Positions 917-26,332 of a stretch of 28,813 nucleotides of DNA are shown piece after piece. Both the position numbers and the translations under genes were made by a program. The first letter of the stretch is position 1. Each line of letters begins with the position of its first letter. The stretch is from positions 1 through 28,813 of the IMG/VR virus record IMGVR_UViG_3300035704_000392. One strand, 5' to 3'. This DNA is from a virus. The notes beneath the pieces are model-generated. The model worked only from the letters and a program-made list of their open reading frames with translations. It had not been told where the DNA came from and did not search any database.

Positions 917-970
917 CGCTTGTTGATCCCCTATGCTCCCGCCCCGTGACTACTTGTTAATCGCTCGGAG

Positions 971-1053
971 TCATCGCTTGATGATCCCGAGGTCATCGCT
1001 TGATGATCCCGAGGTCATCGCTTGATGATCCCGAGGTCATCGCTTGATGATCC
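971..1053 (-). repeat. 22-base tandem repeat, about 3.8 copies
   Basis: Units start at 971, 993, 1015 and 1037 (the last partial) and are identical to the eye. On the minus strand each unit reads as the final codons of the holin-like gene (R-I-I-K-R-stop) plus a CCTCG joint. A further near copy, one mismatch in 18 bases, lies at 913-930 and contains the start codon of the next gene. The repeat fills the otherwise empty stretch between the two genes. Each unit also holds an ATGA stop/start overlap. Confidence 0.9.
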
Positions 1054-5642: not shown

Positions 5643-6641
5643 CTAGAACCGGAAATTGATCGGAGGCCGAACGGACCAATTTTCCATCGACTCGTTGCTC
5701 CAGATACCTCTTGGGGGCGCCGCCTGCTGCGGCGGCGGTTGCGGCGCCAGTTGCGTTGGATTGCGCGGATCGACGCCGGCCACGGAAGCTGTCCAAGCCG
5801 TAACATCATTGCCGTAAGGATTTCGAAATGGCCTGGCAGGAGAGACAAGTCTGAGGGGATCTGCGCCTTCGGCGGAGTCAGATGCTTGCGAGCTGGCGCT
5901 ATTCGCCTGATCGAGGTAGCCGCGATACGGCTCGAGAAATGGGAGCGGAAGTTTCGCCGTGCGACCGCTCAATAGCCACGGAGGGTGGCTACCGGGATTT
6001 TCCGATTTCTTGCTAACGGCCTCGGTCAGTTGAGAACTCGTAAATGGATCGTACGTCCGACCTGAATAGGCGCCCCGCGGCCGATACTCGATATCGTAAG
6101 AGTCACCTCGGTTTTCCGGATCGTATTTCAGTCTCGCCAGCTCACGCGCAACCTCTAGCGGAATATTCCAGGTCTTGTGTTTGAAGTTAAACTTCGTGTC
6201 GAGGGGTTGAATTTCGATGTCATGGAAAGTCTTTGTACCATCCTCACCGACCGTGACCCGGCCGGAAATCCGCGCGCTCTCGTTTCCGAATACGAATGCG
6301 CGCGTTCTGTAATCCTCCGATCCGACGTCAGTCGTATAGTGCGATATCGAAGCCGCGAGCGAGGGATCCTTCTTCCCACCTGGCGCCAATTTCCCCAAAT
6401 CGTACGTGTCCGGGGCAAGATCATTCCGAGCGATGACCTTTTGAATGATCGGAAACATCCCCGGGTGATAATACCGTCCCGGCCCCTCGTCCATGTACCA
6501 ACCCCTATCCACCTCAACCGGCTCGGGCGGACCCCCCACAGGAGTGGGCGTACCCGATGCGCTAAGCGTATTAGAGTGGTCGAGGAATTGCCGGTACGTC
6601 CAGCTCTGGTCGTTTCTGATCCTGGTCTGATTTCCTGACAT
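5643..6641 (-). CDS. Cargo/toxin-like protein of SOS module A
   Basis: A 332-residue protein with no signal peptide or membrane helix. The N-terminal linker is proline-rich (about 30-45). A mixed alpha/beta domain covers about 45-225: FVFGNESARISGRVTVGEDG, IQPLDTKFNFKHKTWNIPLEVARELARLKYDPENRGDSYDIEYRP. A low-complexity Ser/Ala/Pro segment follows. The tail from 286 reads SVAGVDPRNPTQLAPQPPP, sharing the A-G-[IV]-D-P-x-N-P-x-Q signature with the module B protein. It follows, by 3 bases, a membrane-anchored protein with periplasmic cysteines, and the pair has its own promoter. I infer a toxin or effector with its immunity protein. The D-x-x-F-N-F segment loosely recalls bacteriocin domains such as colicin M, but I cannot support an enzymatic assignment. 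Confidence 0.7.
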   Translation of the reverse strand: MSGNQTRIRNDQSWTYRQFLDHSNTLSASGTPTPVGGPPEPVEVDRGWYMDEGPGRYYHPGMFPIIQKVIARNDLAPDTYDLGKLAPGGKKDPSLAASISHYTTDVGSEDYRTRAFVFGNESARISGRVTVGEDGTKTFHDIEIQPLDTKFNFKHKTWNIPLEVARELARLKYDPENRGDSYDIEYRPRGAYSGRTYDPFTSSQLTEAVSKKSENPGSHPPWLLSGRTAKLPLPFLEPYRGYLDQANSASSQASDSAEGADPLRLVSPARPFRNPYGNDVTAWTASVAGVDPRNPTQLAPQPPPQQAAPPRGIWSNESMENWSVRPPINFRF

Positions 6642-6644
6642 AAC

Positions 6645-7034
6645 CTATCTGCCCCCTATGTAGAGCTCTGAATCCCAGTAGGTATCGTCATCAAAGACAT
6701 CGCCGCAGTTCGAGAGCATCACTTGGGCGAACCGTCCATCTCTCGCGTTCAGAGAGACATGCCATGCGATGACCAAGTAGACATTTCTGTCTCTGGTCAC
6801 CGTGCAGCAGTTTTCCGCTTTGGAAAGTGCGGCGATAAAACTTGCGTCGAATTCCTGGCCATGGGCGGATTCCTTTTTGGCTACCTCGATCGCGTCTGCT
6901 TCCGACTCGATCAGATGCTGCCCAGGGCCACAAACATTGTTCAAGCGATACGCGAATCCTGCGCACAACAAGACGAACACCGCAACGAGCGCGACGAGCG
7001 TGAACAAAAACGCTCGAAAAATCTTCTTCAGCAC
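6645..7034 (-). CDS. Membrane-anchored periplasmic protein, immunity candidate (module A)
   Basis: A 129-residue protein. The GTG at 7034 is chosen because AAAGGA lies about 7 bases upstream. Residues 5-29 (IFRAFLFTLVALVAVFVLLCAGFAY) are one membrane segment, with a Lys/Arg-rich start that puts the rest in the periplasm. That part has cysteines at about 35, 76, 77 and 110, suited to disulfides, and a SEADAIEVAKKES helix. An N-terminal anchor plus a periplasmic disulfide domain is also the design of the colicin M immunity protein; this is an analogy, not a detected homology. It is the first gene after a sigma-70-like promoter with a LexA-type box and is followed 3 bases later by the cargo-like gene. 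Confidence 0.7.
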   Translation of the reverse strand: MLKKIFRAFLFTLVALVAVFVLLCAGFAYRLNNVCGPGQHLIESEADAIEVAKKESAHGQEFDASFIAALSKAENCCTVTRDRNVYLVIAWHVSLNARDGRFAQVMLSNCGDVFDDDTYWDSELYIGGR

Positions 7035-7115
7035 GGAGCTTTCCTTTGATCGTGACGCATCCAAATGAGCAGGCCGCGAAATGCATGCAATCGCGAGCAA
7101 TTTTCTACCTATGAT

Positions 7116-7144
7116 TGTATAGAACAAAGAATGAACTTGGTCAA
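7116..7144 (-). promoter_or_regulatory. Promoter A with LexA-type SOS box
   Basis: On the minus strand: -35 TTGACC (7139-7144), a spacer of exactly 17 bases, -10 TATACA (7116-7121). Inside the spacer is GTTC-N7-GTTC (7122-7136), the exact LexA operator form of alphaproteobacteria. LexA bound here would block RNA polymerase until DNA damage. The first start codon served is the GTG at 7034. The promoter shares extra bases outside the box with promoters B and C in this window. Confidence 0.8.
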
Positions 7145-16219: not shown

Positions 16220-17053
16220 TCAACTTACAGCCCACACACCCCAGGAGAAGCCCCTGGTTGTGACGCCGGAGCCGGTGAATATGCGCCAAGTATTCGTGCC
16301 GGTGTCGAAACCAATGCTGTATGTGTTCGCGGCGGGAGTGGTCGAAAGTGTCCACAGGCCGCTGGAAGCCAGCACCGAAATTCCGGCAAACGTCCCGAGG
16401 AAGGCGATAATCCAATCACCTGTGGTATTACCTTCTCGAATGAAGATAAATCCAGCTTGGTTCCCAAGGATCTGGACGCTCGAAGACGCCCCGACGTTGG
16501 TTATTGTTGCCGTCTGCAAATGCGGTTGGCCTGCCGCCGTCGATGGAACGATCTTGCCGCCGACGGACAACGCGCCGCCAACGCCAAGGCCGCCGGCAAA
16601 CTTGCCGGAGCCTGTCGTTGGGGAAGTGGATGCCGTGCTGTCACTGACGGCCAGTGCTCCCGCCAGGGTGCTGACGCCAGTAACGGCGAGCGTGCCGGCA
16701 ACGCTGATATTGCCGGTGAAAGCGTTGCTGGCCTTGGTCAGCGAGGGCAAATCCTCCGCAAGCGCAACGATCGCAACTTGCGGCACTGTCGAAAACGATA
16801 TTTTCGCCGTTGTGCCGAGCGAGTTGAACAGAACGGTGGTGCGCGCAAAAACGCCGGTCGCGCTGTTGTAGGCTCCGAAGCCCACTTCCCATTGTGAAAG
16901 GTCGGCGCTTTCGGCGCGGTAACGATAGACGACGCCGTTGACGGCGCCGGCGGCTGTCGGGCCCTGATATCCGGTTGCCGCGACGGCAACGGCCCAGTCG
17001 GTGGTGCCGCCCGCAACGGGAGTGAACCGGCAGATGTCGAGAAATTCAGCCAT
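16220..17053 (-). CDS. Tail fibre/spike-like protein
   Basis: A 277-residue protein one base after the stop of the gene before it. The N-terminal half (MAEFLDICRFTPVAGGTTDWAVAVAATGYQGPTAAGAVNGVVYRYRAES) resembles the head-binding part of phage fibres. The region about 105-170 has Gly/Ala/Ser/Thr-rich shaft-like repeats (GNISVAGTLAVTGVSTLAGALAVSDSTAST, GKFAGGLGVGGALSVGGKI). A beta-rich end (ILGNQAGFIFIREGNTTGDWIIAFLGTFAGISVLASSG, then TYSIGFDTGTNTWRIF) may be the tip. Likely a trimeric fibre or spike of the short tail. The receptor is unknown. Confidence 0.72.
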   Translation of the reverse strand: MAEFLDICRFTPVAGGTTDWAVAVAATGYQGPTAAGAVNGVVYRYRAESADLSQWEVGFGAYNSATGVFARTTVLFNSLGTTAKISFSTVPQVAIVALAEDLPSLTKASNAFTGNISVAGTLAVTGVSTLAGALAVSDSTASTSPTTGSGKFAGGLGVGGALSVGGKIVPSTAAGQPHLQTATITNVGASSSVQILGNQAGFIFIREGNTTGDWIIAFLGTFAGISVLASSGLWTLSTTPAANTYSIGFDTGTNTWRIFTGSGVTTRGFSWGVWAVS

Positions 17054-17054
17054 C

Positions 17055-17480
17055 TCAGGTGATCGTCAGAACCGGCGAGGCAAGACTGACGGTGAACGTG
17101 TTTCCATTGGTCAAGGTGATCGCTGTGCCGTAATCCCACCAGCCGATCAGCGGCTGAGTGGCCGACGTTGAATTGTAAAGCACGGCAAATTCAAACGGTC
17201 CGATCGAGCCGCCGGAAGCCGTCCACGCCGGATTTGTGCCGCCGGACAATGAGAACGTGCCGGAGCTCTGAACGCCGGTAATGGCGCCGATCGAAACGCC
17301 TCCCGCCGCGTATCCGTTGGCACTCGGAAGATCGGCAGGCGTGTTGTATGCGGTGTTCGTCGCCAAAGGCGCGGTGTTGGTGAGGTACACCTTATAAACC
17401 TGCGCCGTGCCCGTCTTCATGTCGTGCAGCGCGTGCGCGACGTCCCCGACAAAGCAATTGAACTTGTTGAATGATGCCAT
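17055..17480 (-). CDS. Virion structural protein, beta-rich
   Basis: A 141-residue protein starting MASFNKFNCFVGDVAHALHDMKTGTAQVYKVYLTNTAPLATNTAYNTPADLP, followed by Gly/Ser/Thr-rich beta sequence (GGVSIGAITGVQSSGTFSLSGGTNPAWTASGGSIGPFEFAVLYN). The opening FNKFNCFVGDVAHALHDM with V-x-L-T-N-T-A-P is a pattern I recall from small tail-region proteins of many phages, described only as structural. It lies between the connector adaptor and the fibre-like gene, so it may be a tail tube or fibre base part. Confidence 0.72.
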   Translation of the reverse strand: MASFNKFNCFVGDVAHALHDMKTGTAQVYKVYLTNTAPLATNTAYNTPADLPSANGYAAGGVSIGAITGVQSSGTFSLSGGTNPAWTASGGSIGPFEFAVLYNSTSATQPLIGWWDYGTAITLTNGNTFTVSLASPVLTIT

Positions 17481-17490
17481 CGCTATGGTC

Positions 17491-18144
17491 CTAGATGATC
17501 TGGCCGGAGACGCTGACCGTCATTGGTCCGGCGTTGAACGTCGATGTCAGCCCAAGATTGTTGAGATCGTTCAGCGCCGCGGAAAGGCCGAGTGCCCAGA
17601 TCTGGATGCGGCCGTCTTCCTTGATGTAAGGAGCAGATTCCAGCAGCGCGCCGTAGAGATAAAGATCAGGGGCTTTTTCCAAGAGCCAATTAGTGGCATT
17701 GGATGCAAGCGGCGGAATGCTCTGCCGGTACACCATCTCGATGGTGTAGGCGGCGTTCGGTGTCGGCGCCAATTCGATCTCTTCGCCAAATACCGTGAAG
17801 TACCGCGGCTGGCCGCCGAGATCGGACCTGGCGAACCGGTACTCGTCCATCTGCGTACCGGATTTGAATTCGAGGCACGGCTTTCCCGTCACGCTCGAAA
17901 GCCTGACGCGGCGCATGGACTGGAAGTCCGCCGGCAGCGAGATAAATTCCGGCTCGCCTGATGCGGTGTTGACCAGCGCGGTTGAGCGCTGCTCCATTTG
18001 GCGCACGAATAGTTGCCGGTTGAACTTTGCTTCCGCGAGCTGGATGAAAGTCGGGATGCGGACAATCAGGGTCGCATCCTGATCTCTTGCGAGATATTCG
18101 ATGACCGCCGCCTGCAGCGATGTGTAGTCGATGATTTGTGTCAC
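17491..18144 (-). CDS. Head-tail adaptor protein (SU10 adaptor-like)
   Basis: A 217-residue protein. I chose the GTG at 18144 because it overlaps the previous stop (GTGA). Residues 1-100 are helical (IIDYTSLQAAVIEYLARDQDATLIVRIPTFIQLAEAKFNRQLFVRQMEQRS). A beta part follows (FISLPADFQSMRRVRLSS, RYFTVFGEEIELAPTPNAAYTIEMVYRQSIPPL) and a helical end (NWLLEKAPDLYLYGALLESAPYIKED). This order, with the A-x-x-D-L-Y-L-Y-G-A-L-L motif, is that of head-tail connector adaptors of SU10-like podoviruses. It would bind below the portal ring. It directly follows the 111-residue protein and precedes tail genes. Confidence 0.75.
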   Translation of the reverse strand: MTQIIDYTSLQAAVIEYLARDQDATLIVRIPTFIQLAEAKFNRQLFVRQMEQRSTALVNTASGEPEFISLPADFQSMRRVRLSSVTGKPCLEFKSGTQMDEYRFARSDLGGQPRYFTVFGEEIELAPTPNAAYTIEMVYRQSIPPLASNATNWLLEKAPDLYLYGALLESAPYIKEDGRIQIWALGLSAALNDLNNLGLTSTFNAGPMTVSVSGQII

Positions 18145-18476
18145 GCAAGCTCCGCTGACCAGCCGGATTGCAGTCTCGGCCGGTCGGTTCGCAAATAGGC
18201 CCATTCGGGATCGCCGAGTTTCTTCTGGACGATCTGATCGAACTCAGGGGTAAACATGCGCAGATGCGTGTTGCCGGCGGCATGCTGCTCATCAAGCCAT
18301 TTGACGTAAATGACGTTTGGGATCCGCGCGACGTGCCGGCCCCAATCGCTGCTCTGTTCGCAGCGGCGCGATTGCTTGTTCCATTCCAGAATCGGTTCGA
18401 CGTCCTGGACATGCTCGATCGCCAGGTCTTCACCATTGCTGTCGAGATGAGGCCGGATCAGAACGCCGTCCATCAT
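18141..18476 (-). CDS. Conserved phage protein near the connector
   Basis: A 111-residue protein beginning at either of two adjacent ATG codons (18476 or 18473); the first overlaps the preceding stop (ATGA). It reads MMDGVLIRPHLDSNGEDLAIEHVQDVEPILEWNKQSRRCEQSSDWGRHVARIPNVIYVKWLDEQHAAGNTHLRMFTPEFDQIVQKKLGDPEWAYLRT. I associate this pattern (V.PIL..N, GRHVA.IP, FD..V..KL.DP...YLRT) with small virion or connector proteins of many tailed phages, with no known activity. The order (capsid, decoration-like, this gene, adaptor) supports a head completion role. Confidence 0.7.
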   Translation of the reverse strand: MMDGVLIRPHLDSNGEDLAIEHVQDVEPILEWNKQSRRCEQSSDWGRHVARIPNVIYVKWLDEQHAAGNTHLRMFTPEFDQIVQKKLGDPEWAYLRTDRPRLQSGWSAELA

Positions 18477-18784
18477 GACATTTCCGTGACCCACAGCGTT
18501 CCCGCTGTCGCAGTGACGAGGCCGTTGGTGCTGGCCTTGATGGCGGAGATGCGCTGACCGGGACTGACGATCACGTATTCGATCGCGTTGGCCGGAAGAT
18601 ACGCATCGGCCGTTGTCGCATTCTGCGCACCGTCGCCGATTTTGTAACAACAGCCCGAATTGGAGACCAGACGAAGCTGGTAGGTCTCGGGACCGAACGC
18701 ATTCGCGATGGCCACGCTGGCATCGAATGCGATCGTCTGAGACGAACCGTTCCGAGAAGATGGTTGTTTCGGAAAGAACGACAT
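18473..18784 (-). CDS. Small head-region structural protein
   Basis: A 103-residue protein starting right after the stop of the 120-residue protein. The sequence MSFFPKQPSSRNGSSQTIAFDASVAIANAFGPETYQLRLVSNSGCCYKIGDGAQNATTADAYLPANAIEYVIVSPGQRISAIKAS is beta-rich with one Cys-Cys pair. The ending GTLWVTEMS fits a small beta barrel. It may decorate the capsid or stop the head-tail joint. No characterised homologue is known to me. Confidence 0.65.
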   Translation of the reverse strand: MSFFPKQPSSRNGSSQTIAFDASVAIANAFGPETYQLRLVSNSGCCYKIGDGAQNATTADAYLPANAIEYVIVSPGQRISAIKASTNGLVTATAGTLWVTEMS

Positions 18785-19147
18785 TTACGCGGCCCTCACG
18801 CTGACGGAGTAATGCATCGGAACCGACACGCCCGAGGCACCGGAAGGCGTCAGGACGATCACGTCATCCTCGTTCAGGTAAGCGGGTGATGGCGGCGTCA
18901 CCGAAAACAACTGCCCCGCGGCCGAGCCTGCCTGGGTCACCGTGAAACTCGCAAGCGTGGTCGAATTGGCCGATAGGGTAACAGCGGCATCCGAGGTGGT
19001 GATGGCGCCGCCGAGAATGCCGGTCGCCTTCAGAAGCCTGCAACGGAAGGGCACGCGGATGTAAGCGGCGACAGGGCTAGCGCCGCAGGACGGCGTATAG
19101 GCCGTAAGGTCGGTGGTGTTGAGCGTATGATTGCCGGGAAGCGACAT
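18785..19147 (-). CDS. Possible capsid decoration protein
   Basis: A 120-residue protein with GGAG about 9 bases before its ATG. It is beta-rich: MSLPGNHTLNTTDLTAYTPSCGASPVAAYIRVPFRCRLLKATGILGGAITTSDAAVTLSANSTTLASFTVTQAGSAAGQLFSV. The ending VIVLTPSGASGVSVPMHYSVSVRAA fits a jelly-roll or Ig-like fold. Position directly after the major capsid gene is that of decoration or head-stabilising proteins. The function is inferred from position and fold only. Confidence 0.65.
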   Translation of the reverse strand: MSLPGNHTLNTTDLTAYTPSCGASPVAAYIRVPFRCRLLKATGILGGAITTSDAAVTLSANSTTLASFTVTQAGSAAGQLFSVTPPSPAYLNEDDVIVLTPSGASGVSVPMHYSVSVRAA

Positions 19148-19201
19148 CTAGGGAATCTCCAGAAGAATGGGCGATGAAATGGGCGTCGGCACGAGCGAGG
19201 T

Positions 19202-19248
19202 GGCGAAGCAATCCGGCAGCCGTCGCTCGGCTTTCGGATCGCTTCGCC
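19202..19248 (-). terminator. Long hairpin between capsid and next gene
   Basis: Two 14-base arms (19202-19215 and 19235-19248) pair with one mismatch; the loop contains a second small GCCG/CGGC stem. On the minus strand no uridine tract follows. It sits just after the capsid stop at 19272. It could protect the capsid mRNA or partly stop transcription so that capsid is made in excess over the genes below. Confidence 0.5.
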
Positions 19249-19271
19249 CTAGCTCTTGCTGACGAGGCCGA

Positions 19272-20234
19272 TCAGGATGCGGTGTTATCGAACACGCCGC
19301 CGCTGGCTTTTTCGTTCCGGGCGACCAGCGCGTACTCCGCCAGAATCTGGCAGCGATCGGAGTCGCCGGTTTTGGCCAGCGGGACCGAGATCATGTTGCG
19401 GCCGTTCAAATAGGCGACCGCCCATTTGTCCATCTCAAGCACCAGCACATCCCGAGCGCGCTGGAAGCGGTTTGCCACCACCTTGAGCTTGCCGAAGTCG
19501 GACTCGTAGGCGTCGACCGAAGCCACGATCTTCTTCGACTTGGCTTCCTCGATCGCGGTGGCGCGGCCGGTGAAGGTCGAGAACACCTGTTTGTTGAAGG
19601 CGCCGGTCAGAATCGTGCCCGGCTTGCCGCCATTGATCCAGATCGAGGACAGCACGCTCTTCAATCGCGCCTCCGTGAAAGCAATCTGGGTGCCATCGCT
19701 GCGTGTACCGGTGCCGTCGGTCACCGATGGATCGGCAGGCGAACCGGCGCTGCCCTTCGAGGTGTTGGATGCGATCCATGACAGGATCGAAGCCGTAAGC
19801 CGCGGCGTGGTGGTGTTGCCACTTACCTTGGCCTGGTTGGTTCCGACAAGGATAGTCTCGATGTCGCGCTTGAGCTCGAGGCCTTTCAGCATTTCCTGAT
19901 ATGCCAGTTCGTTGTCGCGGCCGGCGTGATCGACGGCCTGCTGGGTGCCCGAGACGCGTGCCACCTTGTAGGAGATCTGGCAGAGATTGCCCAGGCGAAC
20001 CGTGGGCGTGCTCACGGTCGTGGTGGGATCGTCGCCTTCGAGCTGCGCATTCGCCGCGGAAGCCGCGGCCAGCGCCTGGGTTTGCCATTCGTGATTGACG
20101 GCCGAGGCTTTTTCCTTTTCGGCGCCGCTCATGAAGGGCGTGTCGGTCGGATCGATCCGATAGATCATATCCGAGAGATCTTCGCGGTTGCCAACCGCCT
20201 GATAGGTGGCAAAGGTTGAAGTCGGTAGAGACAT
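19272..20234 (-). CDS. Major capsid protein (DUF5309 / SU10-like)
   Basis: A 320-residue protein. The ATG at 20234 is used because AAGGA lies 8 bases upstream; two earlier ATGs fall in that ribosome site. It reads MSLPTSTFATYQAVGNREDLSDMIYRIDPTDTPFMSGAEKEKA, then a long extended stretch, LCQISYKVARVSGTQQAVDHAG and DNELAYQEMLKGLELKRDIETILVG. Later come LKSVLSSIWINGGKPGTILTGAFNKQVFSTF, FGKLKVVANRFQRARDVLVLEMDKWAVAYL and a short end. This is the DUF5309 family of HK97-fold capsid proteins found in SU10-type and related phages. It is the first gene after the terminator and open-frame region at 20237-20590, so it may be read from an upstream operon or a promoter of its own that I could not find. 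Confidence 0.9.
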   Translation of the reverse strand: MSLPTSTFATYQAVGNREDLSDMIYRIDPTDTPFMSGAEKEKASAVNHEWQTQALAAASAANAQLEGDDPTTTVSTPTVRLGNLCQISYKVARVSGTQQAVDHAGRDNELAYQEMLKGLELKRDIETILVGTNQAKVSGNTTTPRLTASILSWIASNTSKGSAGSPADPSVTDGTGTRSDGTQIAFTEARLKSVLSSIWINGGKPGTILTGAFNKQVFSTFTGRATAIEEAKSKKIVASVDAYESDFGKLKVVANRFQRARDVLVLEMDKWAVAYLNGRNMISVPLAKTGDSDRCQILAEYALVARNEKASGGVFDNTAS

Positions 20235-20236
20235 GG

Positions 20237-20470
20237 TCATTCCTTGCAATTGTCCAGCGCTCTGCGGTCCGAAGCTGCGCGGGGCGCAACTGGAAGCCGC
20301 GCTCTTTGAGCGAGCCGGTGCGATCGAGTCCGCCAGGCGGACGTGGATGGGTTCAAGATTCTGAAGACCTCGGCGGCGCGATGGCGCGGAAGCATCGCTT
20401 CCGGTTCGGCTTCCATGATGTCTTCGCCGGGCGCCTGCTCTATTGCAGGGTCGGCGTTGGCTCGCGCCAA
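20237..20470 (-). CDS. Open frame before the capsid gene, possible gene remnant
   Basis: A 77-residue frame beginning at TTG; the frame stays open back to 20524. The first part (ARANADPAIEQAPGEDIMEAEPEAMLPRHRAAEVFRILNPSTSA) has GC-ending codons and an acidic helical composition like coding sequence. The later part (RLPVAPRAASDRRALDNCKE) looks like a shadow, while a different frame reads better, so a frameshift near 20340 is likely. A small scaffold-like or head gene could once have stood before the capsid. No homologue recognised and no ribosome site seen. Confidence 0.25.
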   Translation of the reverse strand: MARANADPAIEQAPGEDIMEAEPEAMLPRHRAAEVFRILNPSTSAWRTRSHRLAQRARLPVAPRAASDRRALDNCKE

Positions 20471-20557
20471 TTCATTTGCTGCGGTCGCCCGAAGAGCGCG
20501 CTCGGCAGCGAATTGTTTGTCAGCTCATGTCGTCTCTCATGGTCTCGTGCCGACATG

Positions 20558-20590
20558 AAAAAACCCGCGATCGGCTTTCCCCGACGCGGG
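20558..20590 (-). terminator. Rho-independent terminator of module C
   Basis: On the minus strand CCCGCG-T-CGG pairs with CCG-A-T-CGCGGG around a GGAAAG loop (20564-20590), followed by six T (20558-20563). It is a classical intrinsic terminator. It ends transcription from promoter C before the capsid region. Confidence 0.85.
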
Positions 20591-20704
20591 CCTGTCATTC
20601 TTTCGATGATGAACTTATGCCGGTGATTTCCCCGACGTGTCAAACTTTTTTGTTGCACGTGTTGTCGCGATGTTGAGCATTGATTAAAGCGCTTCGCGAA
20701 CTGC

Positions 20705-21087
20705 TCAGCAGAGCGCCATGCGCGCGCCTGAGGGGACGGGCTCGAACGGCCGGCGGCGGAACGGCCAGCTTATTGCGTTCGCCTGCCGAGATACCTGATC
20801 GGTCTGTCGTCCGCTGGAGAGCCAGGCCGGCAGCGATGGCTCCTGCGAATCGATTCCCAGAAAATCTGTCCAATCTCCGATGCCGTTGCCATCCCCGATC
20901 GGTTTCGCAACACCCTGGAGCCGCGCCATTTGCGACCCTTGACCGTAGTCATTAAATGGCGACCGCGGTTTGCTTGCCGCGACGGGTCTCTGACATACGC
21001 GCCGCTGCGCATGAGAAACTTCGCCGGTACGTAACCAGTTAACTGGCGATTTCGCTCGGTGCCAACATAAAAACGTGGGTCTGTCAT
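20705..21087 (-). pseudogene. Frameshifted cargo-like gene of module C
   Basis: From the ATG at 21087 one frame reads MTDPRFYVGTERNRQLTGYVPAKFLMRSGAYVRDPSRQANRG. It then turns into Arg/Lys-rich shadow, while the overlapping frame continues with plausible protein: SPFNDYGQGSQMARLQGVAKPIGDGNGIGDWTDFLGIDSQEPSLPAW. The change of frame lies near 20950-20960. The block N-G-I-G-D-W-T-D-F-L-G-I-D-x-x-x-P resembles the tails of the cargo-like proteins of modules A (G-N-D-V-T-A-W-T...G-V-D-P-R-N-P) and B. The repaired product would be about 125 residues. It follows the membrane protein by 15 bases and is followed by a strong terminator. A sequencing error is an alternative to a true frameshift. Confidence 0.45.
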
Positions 21088-21102
21088 ATCTTCGCTCGGC
21101 CA

Positions 21103-21798
21103 TCATAAAGTCGGCGCATACCAATACCGCTCGTCGTCGCCATCAAATTCAATCTCTCCAATCGTAATTTGGTAGAAATTTCCGAACAGCTCACTCGCAC
21201 GTCCTTGCTGGTTGATGAGCAGTTTCTGTGGAGAAAAATGCGACATCGCCGCCTTCCATTCGGGCGTTCTTTGCGACAGTGGCAACACGAACTCTCCCGT
21301 CGTGTCGTAAAATACGTCAACTATCGTTTCGTTCCCTATTACAAGTGTCTCGCATCTGCCGAGCTTCTGCTCTACGCCTTGCTCGACAAACCAAATCATT
21401 TGGCATTGCGCCAGATATCTATCGATCGGAGAAGCGTGGATACGAAACGCCTCCGCATAGAGCCAACGAAACAGAGGCGATCCGCGTCGTACGTAGAAGG
21501 GATTCAGAGCGATGGCCAAAATCACGACAAGGATCGCGGTATCTTTCCATCTGTGCCGAAACAAGGCACCCAAAAAAAGGAAGAATAAAACAAGCAAACA
21601 GACGAAGTATATCCGTGCCAACGGGGTAAACAAATCGGGATGAGAGAACGCCAGAAGCGTCATCCCAAGCCGGCTCCCGACAATCAGAGCGAGCAACACA
21701 TATTTTAAAAGACCCGGCTTCCACCAGGATAGTCGCGGTCGCATATCGCTGGCACTCGGTTCAATGGTCGGAGTCGACGGGTTTGCACCAGAACTCAT
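21103..21798 (-). CDS. Three-helix membrane protein, immunity candidate (module C)
   Basis: A 231-residue protein (ATG at 21798; a GTG at 21807 would add three residues). After a polar start come three membrane segments: LLKYVLLALIVGSRLGMTLLAF (about 30-51), IYFVCLLVLFFLFLGALF (about 63-80) and TAILVVILAIALNPFYV (about 86-102). A soluble part of about 125 residues follows with two cysteines (LAQCQMIWFVEQ, KLGRCETLVIG) and IVDVFYDTTGEFVLPLSQRTPEWKAAM, which I place in the periplasm. No homologous function is known to me. It has its own promoter with a LexA-like box and stands where modules A and B have their membrane or exported protein, so immunity is the best guess. Confidence 0.7.
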   Translation of the reverse strand: MSSGANPSTPTIEPSASDMRPRLSWWKPGLLKYVLLALIVGSRLGMTLLAFSHPDLFTPLARIYFVCLLVLFFLFLGALFRHRWKDTAILVVILAIALNPFYVRRGSPLFRWLYAEAFRIHASPIDRYLAQCQMIWFVEQGVEQKLGRCETLVIGNETIVDVFYDTTGEFVLPLSQRTPEWKAAMSHFSPQKLLINQQGRASELFGNFYQITIGEIEFDGDDERYWYAPTL

Positions 21799-21856
21799 GT
21801 TGCCCACGATCGGCTACGTTCCGGGCCATCCCGCAGATATCCGCAGCCCTCTACTT

Positions 21857-21885
21857 CTGGTAGAACAAACCAGAAACTACGTCAA
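21857..21885 (-). promoter_or_regulatory. Promoter C with LexA-like box
   Basis: On the minus strand: -35 TTGACG (21880-21885), 17-base spacer, -10 TACCAG (21857-21862). The spacer holds GTTT-N7-GTTC (21863-21877), one base off the LexA box GTTC-N7-GTTC. Seventeen of 26 positions are identical in promoters A, B and C. It serves the membrane protein at 21103-21798. Confidence 0.65.
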
Positions 21886-21919
21886 TCGTTGCGCAAGCCC
21901 TTCGCCACCCAGACCGCGC

Positions 21920-22219
21920 TCAAATGATTCCGAAACGCTTCCGTCGCTCGGCGAGTTGCGCGAGTTCTTTCAACTCAGCCTGGGCCAATTTGCCGCTGGT
22001 GACGATCGCGGTCAGATGATCGCGCACCTTGCCGACGATATTGATGGCGAGAAACAATTTTTCACGGGCGCTGATGTCTTCGATTGCCGTAGCGCGCCAT
22101 GCGGCGATGTAGCTGTCTTCGAGCCCAGTGAACGCTTCGGTCAGCAACTCGCTTTCGAGCATTTCCTGGGCTCGCATGGCCTTTGCCACGTCCTGCTCGA
22201 GCCTGCTTTCATCACTCAT
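21920..22219 (-). CDS. Small helical protein downstream of the portal
   Basis: A 99-residue protein overlapping the portal 3' end by 8 bases. It is all helical: MSDESRLEQDVAKAMRAQEMLESELLTEAFTGLEDSYIAAWRATAIEDISAREKLFLAINIVGKVRDHLTAIVTSGKLAQAELKELAQLAERRKRFGII. I recall this pattern (LLTEAF..LE..YI.AWR.T...D...REKL.LA...V..VR..L) as a conserved small phage protein next to the portal, with no known role. Coupling to the portal suggests a head assembly partner. Confidence 0.72.
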   Translation of the reverse strand: MSDESRLEQDVAKAMRAQEMLESELLTEAFTGLEDSYIAAWRATAIEDISAREKLFLAINIVGKVRDHLTAIVTSGKLAQAELKELAQLAERRKRFGII

Positions 22220-23888
22220 TGGATGTGCCCCGTCCGTTATCGCTCTGCTGCATTTTCAGCTCATGGCTATGTGCGGTAGCCGCGACGCCAAGCGCGGCCT
22301 CGGCGACCTCCATCTGATGTTGCGCTTCCGCGTGCTGCATTTTCTGCTGCCCGATCGCGGCCTTCAGGTGCGCATCGAGCAGAGACATCTTGGCGTCGAG
22401 CTCAGCCTTGATCCTTGCCAGTTCGATCTCGGCCTGCATCTTGACTTGCTGGTGAACGGCATCGCTCTGCGCCTTCTGTTGCTCAAGCTGCGCCTTGTGC
22501 GCGGCCGCGCCCTGATCGGCCTGTGCCCTCGCCTGCATGGCGAGCAGCTTTGGGTCGGGTGGCGGCGCGGGCGGCGTCGGCGGCGTGTGCAATAATTGTC
22601 CAGTCCGCGGATCGACAGCGGTGGGGTCGCAGAAGAACCGGTCGGGGTTTTTGTGCCCCATGATCCGGGTCAGTTCAGCCGCGGTGTTGTAGAGTTCGCG
22701 GTCGCCGACCAGGTTGCTTTTGCCGCCGGCGATCAGTTGCTTCTGGACGTTCGCCAAAGCCATAAGTTGCGCGAATTGCTGCGCCTTGCCGCCCGAACCC
22801 AGCCCGACATTGATGGTCATGTCCTCGCGCGTTTTCCATGTCCTCGGGTCGACATTGATCCAGGCGTTTCGCAGCCGCACCGTCTGTTGTTGCTGGCCGT
22901 GCTCGCGTATGGTGCCATGCAGCAGCGCGAAGATGTCGCGCACGCCTTCGGCCATGATCCGCGCGATCAGCTTTATCCGCATTTGCGAGGCTGAGAACAC
23001 CTGCGCCACCGCCGTCGCCGACTGGTTCTGCAATGCGTTCGCATCGATGCCCTGGCTCTGTTTGTTGAGCCCGCTGCGGGTTTCCAGCTCGGCGTCAAGA
23101 TATTGCAGCATCGGAAAGATCGATCCGGTGATATCCGGCACCACCTGCCAGTTCAGCCCGCCCGCGGTCTTGGTGCGGACCACGCCGCCGGGACGCGACA
23201 CCAGGAGATCGTCGAGCGTATTGGCGCCGGCATTGCTTTCAGCGACTTCCACGCGCGGGTTGTTATGCAGATAGAGATTGTCCAGCGCACCGCGCTTGAG
23301 CGCGGTCTTCTCCCGCTGCAGCGGCATGACCAGCTCGGCGATCGAGCGGCCAAAGAAGCGGTGCGTCATCGGCACCGGCGTCGTGGTCGCAAACGGAATG
23401 GCGTCGAAGGGCGTGATGCATTCCCTGCCACCCTTGCGCAGGATCTCGCCCTGGTCGCCGCCGGTGATCACCTGATACAGGCATGGTCGGCCGTTGCCCT
23501 CATAATCCATCCGCACATAGTGCTCGGTGATACGAACCAGCCGCGCCGCCGAGTTTGCCTCGCCGGTGATGGTGCCGAAATGCTCCTGCACGGTGTCGCG
23601 CGCCAGCGTCTCGATTTCGGTATTGCCGGTGTAATCATCGAGCGACCTGACCTGGTCTTGATCGAAGCCTTCCGCGACCAGTTGGCCCTCGGTCTTGGTG
23701 ACGACCTCGTGGAAGCAATAGTTGCAGTCGCGAATATTGCGGGCGCCGCGCTCGATGCCGAATTCCTCCGGAGGAACGCCCATCACCCTCGCCTGGGCGA
23801 GTTTTCGCGTCGTGACGAGTGTAACGTCGTGTGTGATAGCGGAGGTAACGTCCTGCGACAGGCCCAGCAAAGGTACAGCCGTATTCAT
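22212..23888 (-). CDS. Portal protein, C-terminal part of a split gene
   Basis: A 558-residue protein starting at an ATG that shares one base with the stop of the first portal ORF (TGATG), with GGAG about 10 bases upstream. It has the portal body: THDVTLVTTRKLAQARVMGVPPEEFGIERGARNIRDCNYCFHE, PFATTTPVPMTHRFFGRSIAELVMPLQREKTALKRGALDNLYL, YLDAELETRSGLNKQSQGIDANAL and RIMGHKNPDRFF. The end is a Pro-rich linker and a long Ala/Gln coiled coil (residues about 460-550), like the barrel of P22-type portals. The portal is the dodecameric ring through which DNA passes. Homologues of this type are normally one chain of about 700-770 residues. Confidence 0.85.
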   Translation of the reverse strand: MNTAVPLLGLSQDVTSAITHDVTLVTTRKLAQARVMGVPPEEFGIERGARNIRDCNYCFHEVVTKTEGQLVAEGFDQDQVRSLDDYTGNTEIETLARDTVQEHFGTITGEANSAARLVRITEHYVRMDYEGNGRPCLYQVITGGDQGEILRKGGRECITPFDAIPFATTTPVPMTHRFFGRSIAELVMPLQREKTALKRGALDNLYLHNNPRVEVAESNAGANTLDDLLVSRPGGVVRTKTAGGLNWQVVPDITGSIFPMLQYLDAELETRSGLNKQSQGIDANALQNQSATAVAQVFSASQMRIKLIARIMAEGVRDIFALLHGTIREHGQQQQTVRLRNAWINVDPRTWKTREDMTINVGLGSGGKAQQFAQLMALANVQKQLIAGGKSNLVGDRELYNTAAELTRIMGHKNPDRFFCDPTAVDPRTGQLLHTPPTPPAPPPDPKLLAMQARAQADQGAAAHKAQLEQQKAQSDAVHQQVKMQAEIELARIKAELDAKMSLLDAHLKAAIGQQKMQHAEAQHQMEVAEAALGVAATAHSHELKMQQSDNGRGTSNE

Positions 23889-24475
23889 CAGCTCGTTGCT
23901 CCCATGAGTTGTTGGTTGTCTTCGAGAGCGCCAGCATGGGTGTGAACGGTATGCGCCGCGATGTTCATCGCACCGCCGGATTCCATCACGGCTTGCGCCA
24001 ACAGCGCGAACTGATCGTCAGTCAAATCGTAATAGGTCTCGCGGCTTTCTTCCTCGCGCTCTTCCCACCACACCTTGACGATCCCGACCTTGGACAGCAG
24101 CGCGTCTTTGATGAATGAATAAAGGATCATGAAGCCGGGGTTCTGCTGCATGAAAACGTGATTGACGTAATCGGTCTCCTGCTGGGCCGCAGCTTCGTCC
24201 TCCGGGCCGACCGGCTCGAAGCGGACGACTTCGTCGGAGCCCGCAAAGATATCCATCAGCGAGGGCATCAAGCCTTCGATGGTATCCGCGACATCGGTCG
24301 AGACCGCGCGCGAGCGGCCGTCCTGCGCCGGCATGTCCTTGCGCATATCGCCGAGATAGTAATCCATCGCGTCGGCGCGATCTTCCATCAGCCGCGCGGC
24401 CGAGATCGCCGCCAGCGCATTGGCCTTTTCGGAGGCGAGCATGGATTTGAGATCGTCGTTAGACATCTTGGGCAT
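23888..24475 (-). CDS. Portal protein, N-terminal part of a split gene
   Basis: A 195-residue protein (an ATG at 24532 would add 19 residues). It reads MPKMSNDDLKSMLASEKANALAAISAARLMEDRADAMDYYLGDMRKDMPAQDGRSRAVSTDVADTIEGLMPSLMDIFAGSDEVVRFEPVGPEDEAAAQQETDYVNHVFMQQNPGFMILYSFIKDALLSKVGIVKVWWEERE, the standard N-terminal third of P22-like portals. It stops at LEDNQQLMGATS and the next ORF starts in another frame. No slippery heptamer was seen at the joint, so either a frameshift mutation or a true two-chain portal is present. The start region is duplicated at 26188-26332. Confidence 0.8.
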   Translation of the reverse strand: MPKMSNDDLKSMLASEKANALAAISAARLMEDRADAMDYYLGDMRKDMPAQDGRSRAVSTDVADTIEGLMPSLMDIFAGSDEVVRFEPVGPEDEAAAQQETDYVNHVFMQQNPGFMILYSFIKDALLSKVGIVKVWWEEREEESRETYYDLTDDQFALLAQAVMESGGAMNIAAHTVHTHAGALEDNQQLMGATS

Positions 24476-24597
24476 GGATAAAGGTCTCGGGTTGAAAGAG
24501 TAAGGATGTGGGTCCGTCTCGATGCAAAGCATTAAGCGCGGAATATCGATTTCGCCCCGAGCGCAATTGCACTCAGGCTCGCGAATTCACGCCGATG
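24451..24597 (-). repeat. Direct repeat copy 1 (portal 5' end and leader)
   Basis: 147 bases covering the first codons of the portal gene and the sequence upstream. An imperfect copy, in the same orientation, lies at 26188-26332. Similarity is high by eye (long identical runs broken by single changes) and stops sharply at both ends. Confidence 0.85.
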
Positions 24598-24630
24598 AAG
24601 GGCTTGCGGATCGGAAAAGGCGAAGGTGGT

Positions 24631-25524
24631 TCAGGCTTGGCGCTGGCCGCGAAGCAAGAGGCCGAGCAGCCCACCGGCTGGCGGCGCAGTTTGGTCCGGA
24701 TTGTTCGGATCGATGCCCGCCAGCGCTGCGAGTCGGCCGGCAAGGCCGCCGATGAATTCTGGGGTTGAGGCTGGGAGAAGAGCTACCGGAGTACTAGGAA
24801 GGCCTAACCTGAATGCTCCGGGCTTTGGTCCGCCCCCTGCAGGCAAGTTCCAGATCGGCGGCGGTGCGGGAGAGTTCGGCATTGGCTTGCCGCCAAAAAT
24901 GCCTAGCGGTCTGGAAGACTGTGGCTCGGGCGTGTTGCGACTGGAAACAGCTGGCGCGCTTGTGTCGAATACGGACGCCGGCGATCGGTCCACAATCCGC
25001 CGGGATAAAATTCGCACCGGCTCACTGTTCAAGTTATTGTCCGTCGCTCCTGCCCGCGACTCCTGCACCAGCGGCTCTGCTTCAGGAGGAAATGAAATGA
25101 GCTCCGGTGCGCCACTTAGTGATCTTGGACTTATTACTCTGGGAACATCAATTGGATCGACTGTATCCGGATGAGCGCGCAGAATACGATCTCTGGCTTC
25201 GTTGTTTCGTGCAGCCTGTTCGACCCGCTCGATCGTTCGATCGATGTTGTCGATAACGGAATCGATTATCGAATTAGGATCATCAGCAAATGCCTTCGCC
25301 CCAATTGCGTATTGCTTGAACCTTTTCAGATCCTGAACCGTGCTGTCTCCAAAGTCACTTATTAACGGTTTTTGCGTGCCGCCTTCGAAATACGACCCTG
25401 CTCCGTTCAAATAGTAATCAAGAACATCGTTGGCTTGAGCGCTGATCTCAGCTCTGTGCGCTTCCGTTATCGTAGTAACCGTGCCGTTCGGTGGAGGTAG
25501 AGGTCTTTTTTCTATAGTAGCCAT
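24631..25524 (-). CDS. Cargo/toxin-like protein of module B
   Basis: A 297-residue protein starting at the ATG at 25524, with GGAG 5 bases upstream. Residues 1-120 are helical and charged (VTTITEAHRAEISAQANDVLDYYLNGAGSYFEGG, NSIIDSVIDNIDRTIERVEQAARNNEARDRILRAH). The rest is Pro/Ser-rich, presumably unfolded, with SPAPPPIWNLPAGGGPKPG. The last 40 residues read GGLAGRLAALAGIDPNNPDQTAPPAGGLLGLLLRGQ. They carry both the AGIDPNNPDQ signature shared with module A and an LLG motif like that of the operon-encoded cargo-like proteins. There is no signal peptide. It lies 29 bases after the exported protein gene. Toxin/effector role inferred. Confidence 0.68.
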   Translation of the reverse strand: MATIEKRPLPPPNGTVTTITEAHRAEISAQANDVLDYYLNGAGSYFEGGTQKPLISDFGDSTVQDLKRFKQYAIGAKAFADDPNSIIDSVIDNIDRTIERVEQAARNNEARDRILRAHPDTVDPIDVPRVISPRSLSGAPELISFPPEAEPLVQESRAGATDNNLNSEPVRILSRRIVDRSPASVFDTSAPAVSSRNTPEPQSSRPLGIFGGKPMPNSPAPPPIWNLPAGGGPKPGAFRLGLPSTPVALLPASTPEFIGGLAGRLAALAGIDPNNPDQTAPPAGGLLGLLLRGQRQA

Positions 25525-25553
25525 ATTAGCTCCCGATCGTTTCGGCCACGACC

Positions 25554-25973
25554 TCATCGATAGTCGAACCTAAGATAAAGCGTGCCCGCACGTTCGTTCT
25601 GAATAAATAAGCCGCCTCTGGCTCGGGTTCCCTTAAAGAAGGAAACTCGAGATAGCAGGTTGCGCGGGTCAATGATTTTGCTTTCAGCGGCGAGGTCGAA
25701 ATAGCAGCAACTTGGGTCGCTTGCATACAATCGAACGGAAGCTTGCTCAGGCTCCCTGCGAGATACGAAAATGCTGACCGTCAGCCCCAGGGGTTCTATT
25801 TTCGCGCGACATATCTCGTCGAACGAACACGTCAGCGAGTTGGCGTCCTTACCGATCTCGGTTTCAACCCCCACCTCGACGCTATAGTCGGCGGCAAATG
25901 CGGAGCTGACCAACAAAGCAATGCCAAAGACACCCAGAACAGTGGTAAACAGAGGTTGTCCGGTGCTTCTCAC
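25554..25973 (-). CDS. Exported protein with four cysteines, immunity candidate (module B)
   Basis: A 139-residue protein starting at GTG (25973), with a weak ribosome site. Residues 1-28 form a signal peptide (TTVLGVFGIALLVSSAFAA, cleavage near AFA-ADY). The mature part of about 110 residues is beta-rich: YSVEVGVETEIGKDANSLTC, LGLTVSIFVSRREPEQASVRLYA, LLSRVSFFKGTRARGGLFIQNERAGTLYLRFDYR. Cysteines at 49, 55, 89 and 90 suit disulfides; the mid-chain Cys-Cys pair recalls the module A partner (76-77), though the sequences are not otherwise alike. A soluble periplasmic inhibitor or immunity protein is the best guess. It is the first gene after promoter B. Confidence 0.65.
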   Translation of the reverse strand: MRSTGQPLFTTVLGVFGIALLVSSAFAADYSVEVGVETEIGKDANSLTCSFDEICRAKIEPLGLTVSIFVSRREPEQASVRLYASDPSCCYFDLAAESKIIDPRNLLSRVSFFKGTRARGGLFIQNERAGTLYLRFDYR

Positions 25974-26105: not shown

Positions 26106-26134
26106 GAGATAGAACATACCGAGAACTTAGTCAA
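26106..26134 (-). promoter_or_regulatory. Promoter B with LexA-type SOS box
   Basis: On the minus strand: -35 TTGACT (26129-26134), 17-base spacer, -10 TATCTC (26106-26111). The spacer contains an exact GTTC-N7-GTTC (26112-26126). Both the box and its place relative to -35 and -10 are the same as in promoter A. It would drive the exported protein at 25554-25973 and the cargo-like gene after it. Confidence 0.75.
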
Positions 26135-26187: not shown

Positions 26188-26332
26188 GATCGCCGTTAGA
26201 CATCTTGGGCATGGATAAAGGTCTCGGGTTGAAAGAGTGAGGGTGTGAATCCATCTCGATGCAGAGCATCAAGCGCGGAATCAATTTCTTCCCGAGTGGA
26301 GTTGCGCTCAGGTTCGCTAATTCACGCCGATG
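26188..26332 (-). repeat. Direct repeat copy 2, remnant of the portal 5' end
   Basis: 145 bases matching 24451-24597. The reading MLCIE-D-HP-SFNPRPLSMPKMSN is kept, but after MPKMSN the frame turns into unrelated sequence, so this is not a working gene. Copies 1 and 2 frame the whole module B (24598-26187). Because copy 2 is nearer the terminase, it may mark the original portal start or the outer end of an insertion. Confidence 0.8.

Follow-up and report, generated by a model that had tools for sequence, protein, structure and literature searches.

We propose that the membrane-protein gene here called M, which lies between the portal and capsid genes of a soil phage, is very probably an orphan immunity gene left behind when a phage-borne toxin-immunity pair, of a family that appears to be undescribed, decayed. 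This reading comes from sequence comparison of the window (the whole stretch of 28,813 bases of virus record IMGVR_UViG_3300035704_000392) with related loci. Along 99% of its length, the window's capsid protein shares 73% identity with the capsid of Bradyrhizobium phage ppBeUSDA76-2; its identity with the capsid encoded on a Bradyrhizobium MAG contig (L007) is 94%. M and the second gene of the proposed pair, C, belong to module C, which lies in the interval between portal and capsid; all the genes discussed are on the (-) strand. The portal N-terminal half (23888-24532) and the main part of the portal (22212-23888) are followed by a 99-aa ORF (21920-22219) between portal and module C, and the capsid gene (19272-20249) comes next after the module. 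A second record, IMGVR_UViG_3300036786_000085 (L040/L003), repeats the window sequence with one mismatch in the 9574 bases compared, and possibly does not derive from independent reads.

M, the proposed immunity protein, is intact, as the initial annotation had it: positions 21103..21807 (-) are open for 234 aa from a GTG start, with an in-frame ATG at 21798. Its hydropathy describes three transmembrane helices and a C-terminal domain, the latter with two cysteines that are invariant across a 21-row alignment that includes plasmid homologues. Positive charges precede the first helix and fall between the second and third, an arrangement which, by the positive-inside rule, would put the C-terminal domain outside the cytoplasm; this Cys domain is thus probably periplasmic. 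A Pfam scan of 20 members of the M group returned no family above cut-off.

Single M queries against genome contigs and against phage and plasmid collections gave no match, and close-relative scans that used a single M protein or the C tail returned nothing beyond the second record of the window sequence. The loci of relatives were then obtained through capsid alignment. In many of these, an intact C homologue of about 265-290 aa lies directly 3' of M, which answers the search for an intact counterpart that had been suggested at the outset; ten intact C proteins can be aligned across about 266 positions.

Against six intact relatives, the C gene of the window has lost about 165-177 codons from its middle, and its frame changes twice. 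Three remnants persist on the (-) strand. The first (20983..21087, frame 1) encodes the N-terminal residues 1-35 and aligns to residues 1-35/37 of all six relatives; the second (20822..20983) encodes the conserved tail in the other frame (residues 202-253 of the C protein of locus L056; tail profile E 2.8e-15); the third (20770..20817), in frame 1 again, carries the last residues and the native stop (L056 residues 255-269). The preserved tail corresponds to residues from about 202-213 to 253-263 of the six relatives, the deletion junction lies near 20983, and the second frame change falls near 20822-20817. As judged from these alignments, roughly half a kilobase has been deleted from within the gene, which is the main lesion, and two frame changes accompany this deletion. 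The second gene is therefore broken, as had been claimed; the earlier description of it as frameshifted was correct in that the frame does change, but not in its implication of a point frameshift as the main lesion, and the site then favoured (20940-20970) contains no break in homology; that stretch is inside the preserved tail.

Another observation to emerge from this comparison is that the tail is not private to C. When the C tail profile was run against the 427 ORFs of the window, it matched the cargo of module A (E 5e-5), so that we found neither of the two things that the initial annotation had held would count against it, namely intact frames and a lack of kinship with the other cargo tails. 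Related tail motifs occur at ORF ends in 19 of 116 capsid loci, with 26 matches compared to 0 in a reversed control of 8010 tails. Such recurrence suggests that the common tail may be a trafficking signal. A further step, which we regard as unlikely, is that these phages carry interchangeable antibacterial toxins near their head genes, which would be loaded by their tails into the virion and enter the next cell with the DNA, an orphan M then blocking relatives by neutralising the injected cargo.

The direction of decay was assessed with M and C profiles that were run on the loci, chained, deduplicated at 97% DNA identity and paired, which yielded 56 units; the loci had been found via capsid, C or M, and the collection is partly biased. 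M is intact beside an intact C in 16 units, beside a broken C in 13, and with C absent in 9. A broken M accompanies an intact C in 0 units, a broken C in 3 and an absent C in 4; six of the remaining units have a C fragment but no M, and five are edge cases at contig ends. In total, M is intact with a broken or absent C in 22 units, and in 0 units is C intact while M is broken or missing. The count is 21 versus 0 without L158, a single open ORF of other architecture, and 16 versus 0 for orphan M among capsid-fetched loci only; binomials on these orphan counts are naive in that they ignore kinship. The rule scores L158 and L159 as broken, yet each is one open ORF of a longer variant; these rows were handled by hand, as were L157, at a contig start, and the first unit of L145, an edge case by the rule that is frameshifted on the longer L162. 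All 16 intact C genes have a full M, and for two further intact C genes M is cut by the contig end.

M and C form an adjacent two-gene unit that is conserved across genomes. Of the 265 genomes in a Bradyrhizobium sample, 9 carry C and 7 carry M, and each of the 7 with M also has C. One tandem array (L010) contains three M genes, one with an intact C, one with half of C, and one with the tail only; another (L146) has four M genes and one C. The C gene of L145 has an internal deletion similar to the window's. Lesions differ among units, so the losses of C were mostly separate events. Taken together with the occurrence of M-C pairs in secretion-system loci (see below), the 22-to-0 asymmetry supports, by comparison, the original proposal that the toxin was lost and the immunity gene kept. 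That proposal would be weakened by an intact M in genomes that never had C, and here the nine units with intact M and absent C give a divided answer: C remnants were recognised by eye or tblastn in three (the second copy in L008, L059 and L112), and none were seen in the rest.

Might M be intact merely because C was lost recently, with orphan M under no selection? M is shorter than C and upstream of it, and M itself is broken in 7 rows of the unit table, so this neutral account has something in its favour; we nevertheless consider it rather improbable. The 22-to-0 direction speaks against it, as do orphan M copies that have diverged substantially while dN/dS has stayed low: 0.26 for orphan versus paired M within L010 and 0.13 for the M of L176 versus that of L078 (also orphan versus paired), both being pairwise values that do not date the loss of C, and 0.21 for window M versus L144 M, two proteins with 59% identity, again a pairwise value that does not isolate the time since C loss. 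M and C distances are correlated (r 0.63, 15 pairs, 0 of 5000 permutations), which is also expected of genes that are adjacent and inherited together; where a capsid control could be included (8 pairs), r(M,C) is 0.37, no higher than r(M,capsid) at 0.38.

The non-phage settings provide what we view as the best evidence, still of a comparative kind, that C may be an effector that is secreted, with M as the partner that confers immunity. Three plasmids were matched by tblastn with intact C. On Paraburkholderia phymatum pBPHY01, the order is an ImpA_N (TssA-type) ORF (E 1.5e-28), M (1e-7), an ORF with the C domain (1.6e-30) and a VgrG-type ORF (Phage_GPD, 1e-85). On a plasmid of Pantoea sp. JZ2, M is followed by C as the N-terminus of an 822-aa protein, then by a 1721-aa ORF and a type I secretion permease/ATPase; on a Rahnella sikkimica plasmid, C is broken and M is open. 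Furthermore, in a proteobacterial genome (L183), the C domain stands at the start of an RTX-like ORF. The M profile did not recognise the membrane ORFs upstream of that ORF; we observed there (L183 2462-5549) two near-identical copies of a membrane-type ORF 5' of the RTX-like ORF, and these are possibly another immunity family for the same candidate toxin domain. Searches with the C domain found none in 369 genomes of one class and 2 in 398 genomes of the phylum. Outside phages, this toxin-candidate domain is therefore associated with T6SS and T1SS/RTX-like neighbourhoods, T6SS-type neighbours being shown for L179 only. Near the phage units we saw no T6SS genes, the window ORFs having been scanned in part.

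For C itself, the libraries searched yielded neither a known toxin domain nor a catalytic motif or fold. A Pfam scan of the 10 intact C proteins gave no family at E <= 0.5 and no MuF domain, and NCBIfam and PHROG searches gave no family, one PHROG at E 0.38 being set aside. A relationship to alginate lyase was considered and rejected: PDB sequence rows appeared only at E > 0.4 over residues 9-45, and we took these as chance. AF2 modelled full C with 10 rows at a pLDDT of 38, and the C domain alone with 19 rows at 82 in one of five models (48-63 in the others); no convincing match came from Foldseek or VIA-align. A literature search of open-licence papers located no description of the M-C pair. 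Given the place of M in the membrane and the Cys-paired domain that it probably exposes to the periplasm, the likelier guess for the target of C is the periplasm or the inner membrane.

That C lacks a recognised toxin domain would suit a different partnership, in which M serves C as a membrane anchor or export chaperone, or the two act in superinfection exclusion or lysis; C would then depend on M, and an orphan M would simply be slower to decay. A chaperone or anchor role predicts, as immunity does, that intact C is never found without M. We judge this arrangement to be quite unlikely, because a chaperone is useless without its client and yet orphan M is open in 22 rows, several of them in tandem arrays (L010, L146), and because T6SS and T1SS neighbourhoods suit secreted effectors with immunity. 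It is very improbable that the second gene is not decayed at all, with the ORF at 20705-21124 or a programmed frameshift yielding a small functional protein: that ORF is open for 139 aa, its ATG overlaps the M stop (ATGA), and L145 2622-2876 joins residues 4-58 to 243-265 in a single open frame, but the homology in the window switches frame twice with the middle of C wholly gone, and the N-terminal part of the ORF has no homologue among intact relatives.

The promoter that the initial annotation placed ahead of M corresponds to a promoter-like site at 21857..21885 (-), with a -35 TTGACG and a weak -10 TACCAG. Within it is a LexA-box-like GTTT-N7-GTTC (21863-21877, (-)), one mismatch from GTTC-N7-GTTC, which is given as the LexA-binding motif of Alphaproteobacteria in two papers (PMC8565304, PMC3323433). 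Perfect TTGAC-LexA-box promoters precede module A (7122..7144, (-); membrane-type ORF 6645-7127, cargo 5643-6641) and module B (26112..26134, (-); ORF 25554-25973, cargo 24631-25557). At <=1 mismatch, the composite motif TTGAC-N3-GTTC-N7-GTTC has exactly three occurrences in the window, one ahead of each module (A, B and C), compared to a mean expectation of 0.05 from 20 Markov sequences. Upstream sequence was long enough in 44 units; of these, 17 show a LexA-type box at <=1 mismatch, and each of the 17 beats 100 of 100 shuffles of its own upstream stretch; L051 was left out of this count, its upstream sequence being too short. A simple sigma-70 scan of 17000-25000 found no promoter whatever, so that the promoter C call rests on the repetition of the motif and on its conservation. 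We also considered whether the SOS box is lost in orphan units; it is present at <=1 mismatch in 6 of 20 orphans versus 10 of 16 pairs, a difference that is not significant (Fisher p 0.09).

At the other end of the module, the strong terminator that had been noted is indeed there, as an intrinsic-terminator-like hairpin with a U run (20556..20600, (-); dG -22.3 kcal/mol, z -3.4). Just before the hairpin, and outside the module, is a promoter-like element, TTGACACGTCGGGGAAATCACCGGCATA (20616..20643, (-)). Of 116 capsid loci, 53 contain the block that these two elements form; M is present in 14 of the 53 and lacking in 39, and we therefore assign the terminator and its promoter to the phage backbone; the notion of module C as a self-contained unit falls with that assignment. 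The block (20556-20643, (-)) is kept before head genes, and some loci (L007, L065, L079) have up to four copies. An Rfam search of the window gave no match; perhaps the block is an antitermination-controlled late promoter or a tiny RNA.

Several features of the surrounding locus deserve separate mention. The portal gene (window 22212-24532, (-)) is divided into two ORFs, while the portal of L007 is one frame without stops. The portal halves are ~1.2-5.4 kb apart in L074, L079, L083, L085, L093 and L096, and in L074, L079, L085 and L096 the gap contains cargo-like ORFs. The portal 5' end is duplicated in the window (24451-24597 and 26188-26332) on either side of module B, a possible trace of the route by which modules insert. 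L074 1276-5148 and L096 1866-6300 each hold a series of differing cargo-like ORFs with related glycine-proline tails, interleaved with secreted or membrane-type ORFs; these runs are candidates for further toxin-immunity modules. Finally, 22-nt tandem direct repeats, GTCATCGCTTGATGATCCCGAG, are found at window 948-1053.

We hypothesize the following history for the orphan M of the window. A phage-borne toxin-immunity pair would have been inserted between the portal and capsid genes, where M, as the first gene, would have provided immunity and C, as the second, the toxin, both driven at one time by an SOS-type promoter. C would have consisted of an N-terminal toxin domain of about 200 residues and a proline-rich tail shared with other phage cargo. 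In the window phage, the putative toxin domain was deleted, so as to leave two ends in clashing frames and M open. M would be an inner-membrane protein whose Cys-paired domain reaches into the periplasm, and it probably neutralises C-type toxins from relatives.

The M-C pair can be placed in a known kind of system as a new family, with an unusual location. SOS-controlled colicins and pyocins have a LexA-type promoter ahead of a toxin-immunity operon. The promoter motif before the M-C unit appears to be of the same type, the box of module C being one mismatch off; unlike colicins and pyocins, the M-C unit places immunity first, where it shares the SOS-type promoter, and no colicin domain architecture was recognised. 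Arrays of orphan immunity genes are described by Kirchberger et al. (2017, PMC5361080) for the T6SS clusters of Vibrio cholerae, in which immunity genes outlast displaced effectors and accumulate with effector remnants, as M appears to do. On the other hand, the M-C pairs are carried by phages close to their head genes and have the proposed immunity gene before the toxin gene, and their losses are often by internal deletion or frameshift rather than by displacement alone. Bxa (PMC11699363) is a prophage-encoded MuF polymorphic toxin with an N-terminal MuF domain, a C-terminal toxin and immunity downstream; like the proposed M-C family, MuF toxins are prophage-borne, can exchange their toxin domains and have immunity genes next to them. 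In contrast to Bxa, the M-C unit has its variable domain at the N-terminus of C and the shared tail at the C-terminus, with the proposed immunity gene upstream, and the Pfam scan returned no MuF domain. That one domain recurs in T6SS, T1SS/RTX-like and phage carriers, in each case accompanied by a candidate immunity gene, recalls the polymorphic toxin systems of Zhang et al. (2012, PMC3482391), from which the C domain differs in being without a match in Pfam, NCBIfam or PHROG, the libraries compared.

These units supply a countable phage case of antidotes outliving their putative toxins, 22 to 0 over 56 units. They also bring to light a candidate toxin domain and immunity family, without a model in the libraries searched, that is common to phages and to T6SS and T1SS loci, and their promoter motifs suggest SOS-type control of phage-borne toxin modules. 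If the virion-loading idea were true, the window would carry an antidote-only exclusion gene. Should orphan M confer protection, soil phages would constitute a store of genes that give immunity to the weapons of other bacteria.
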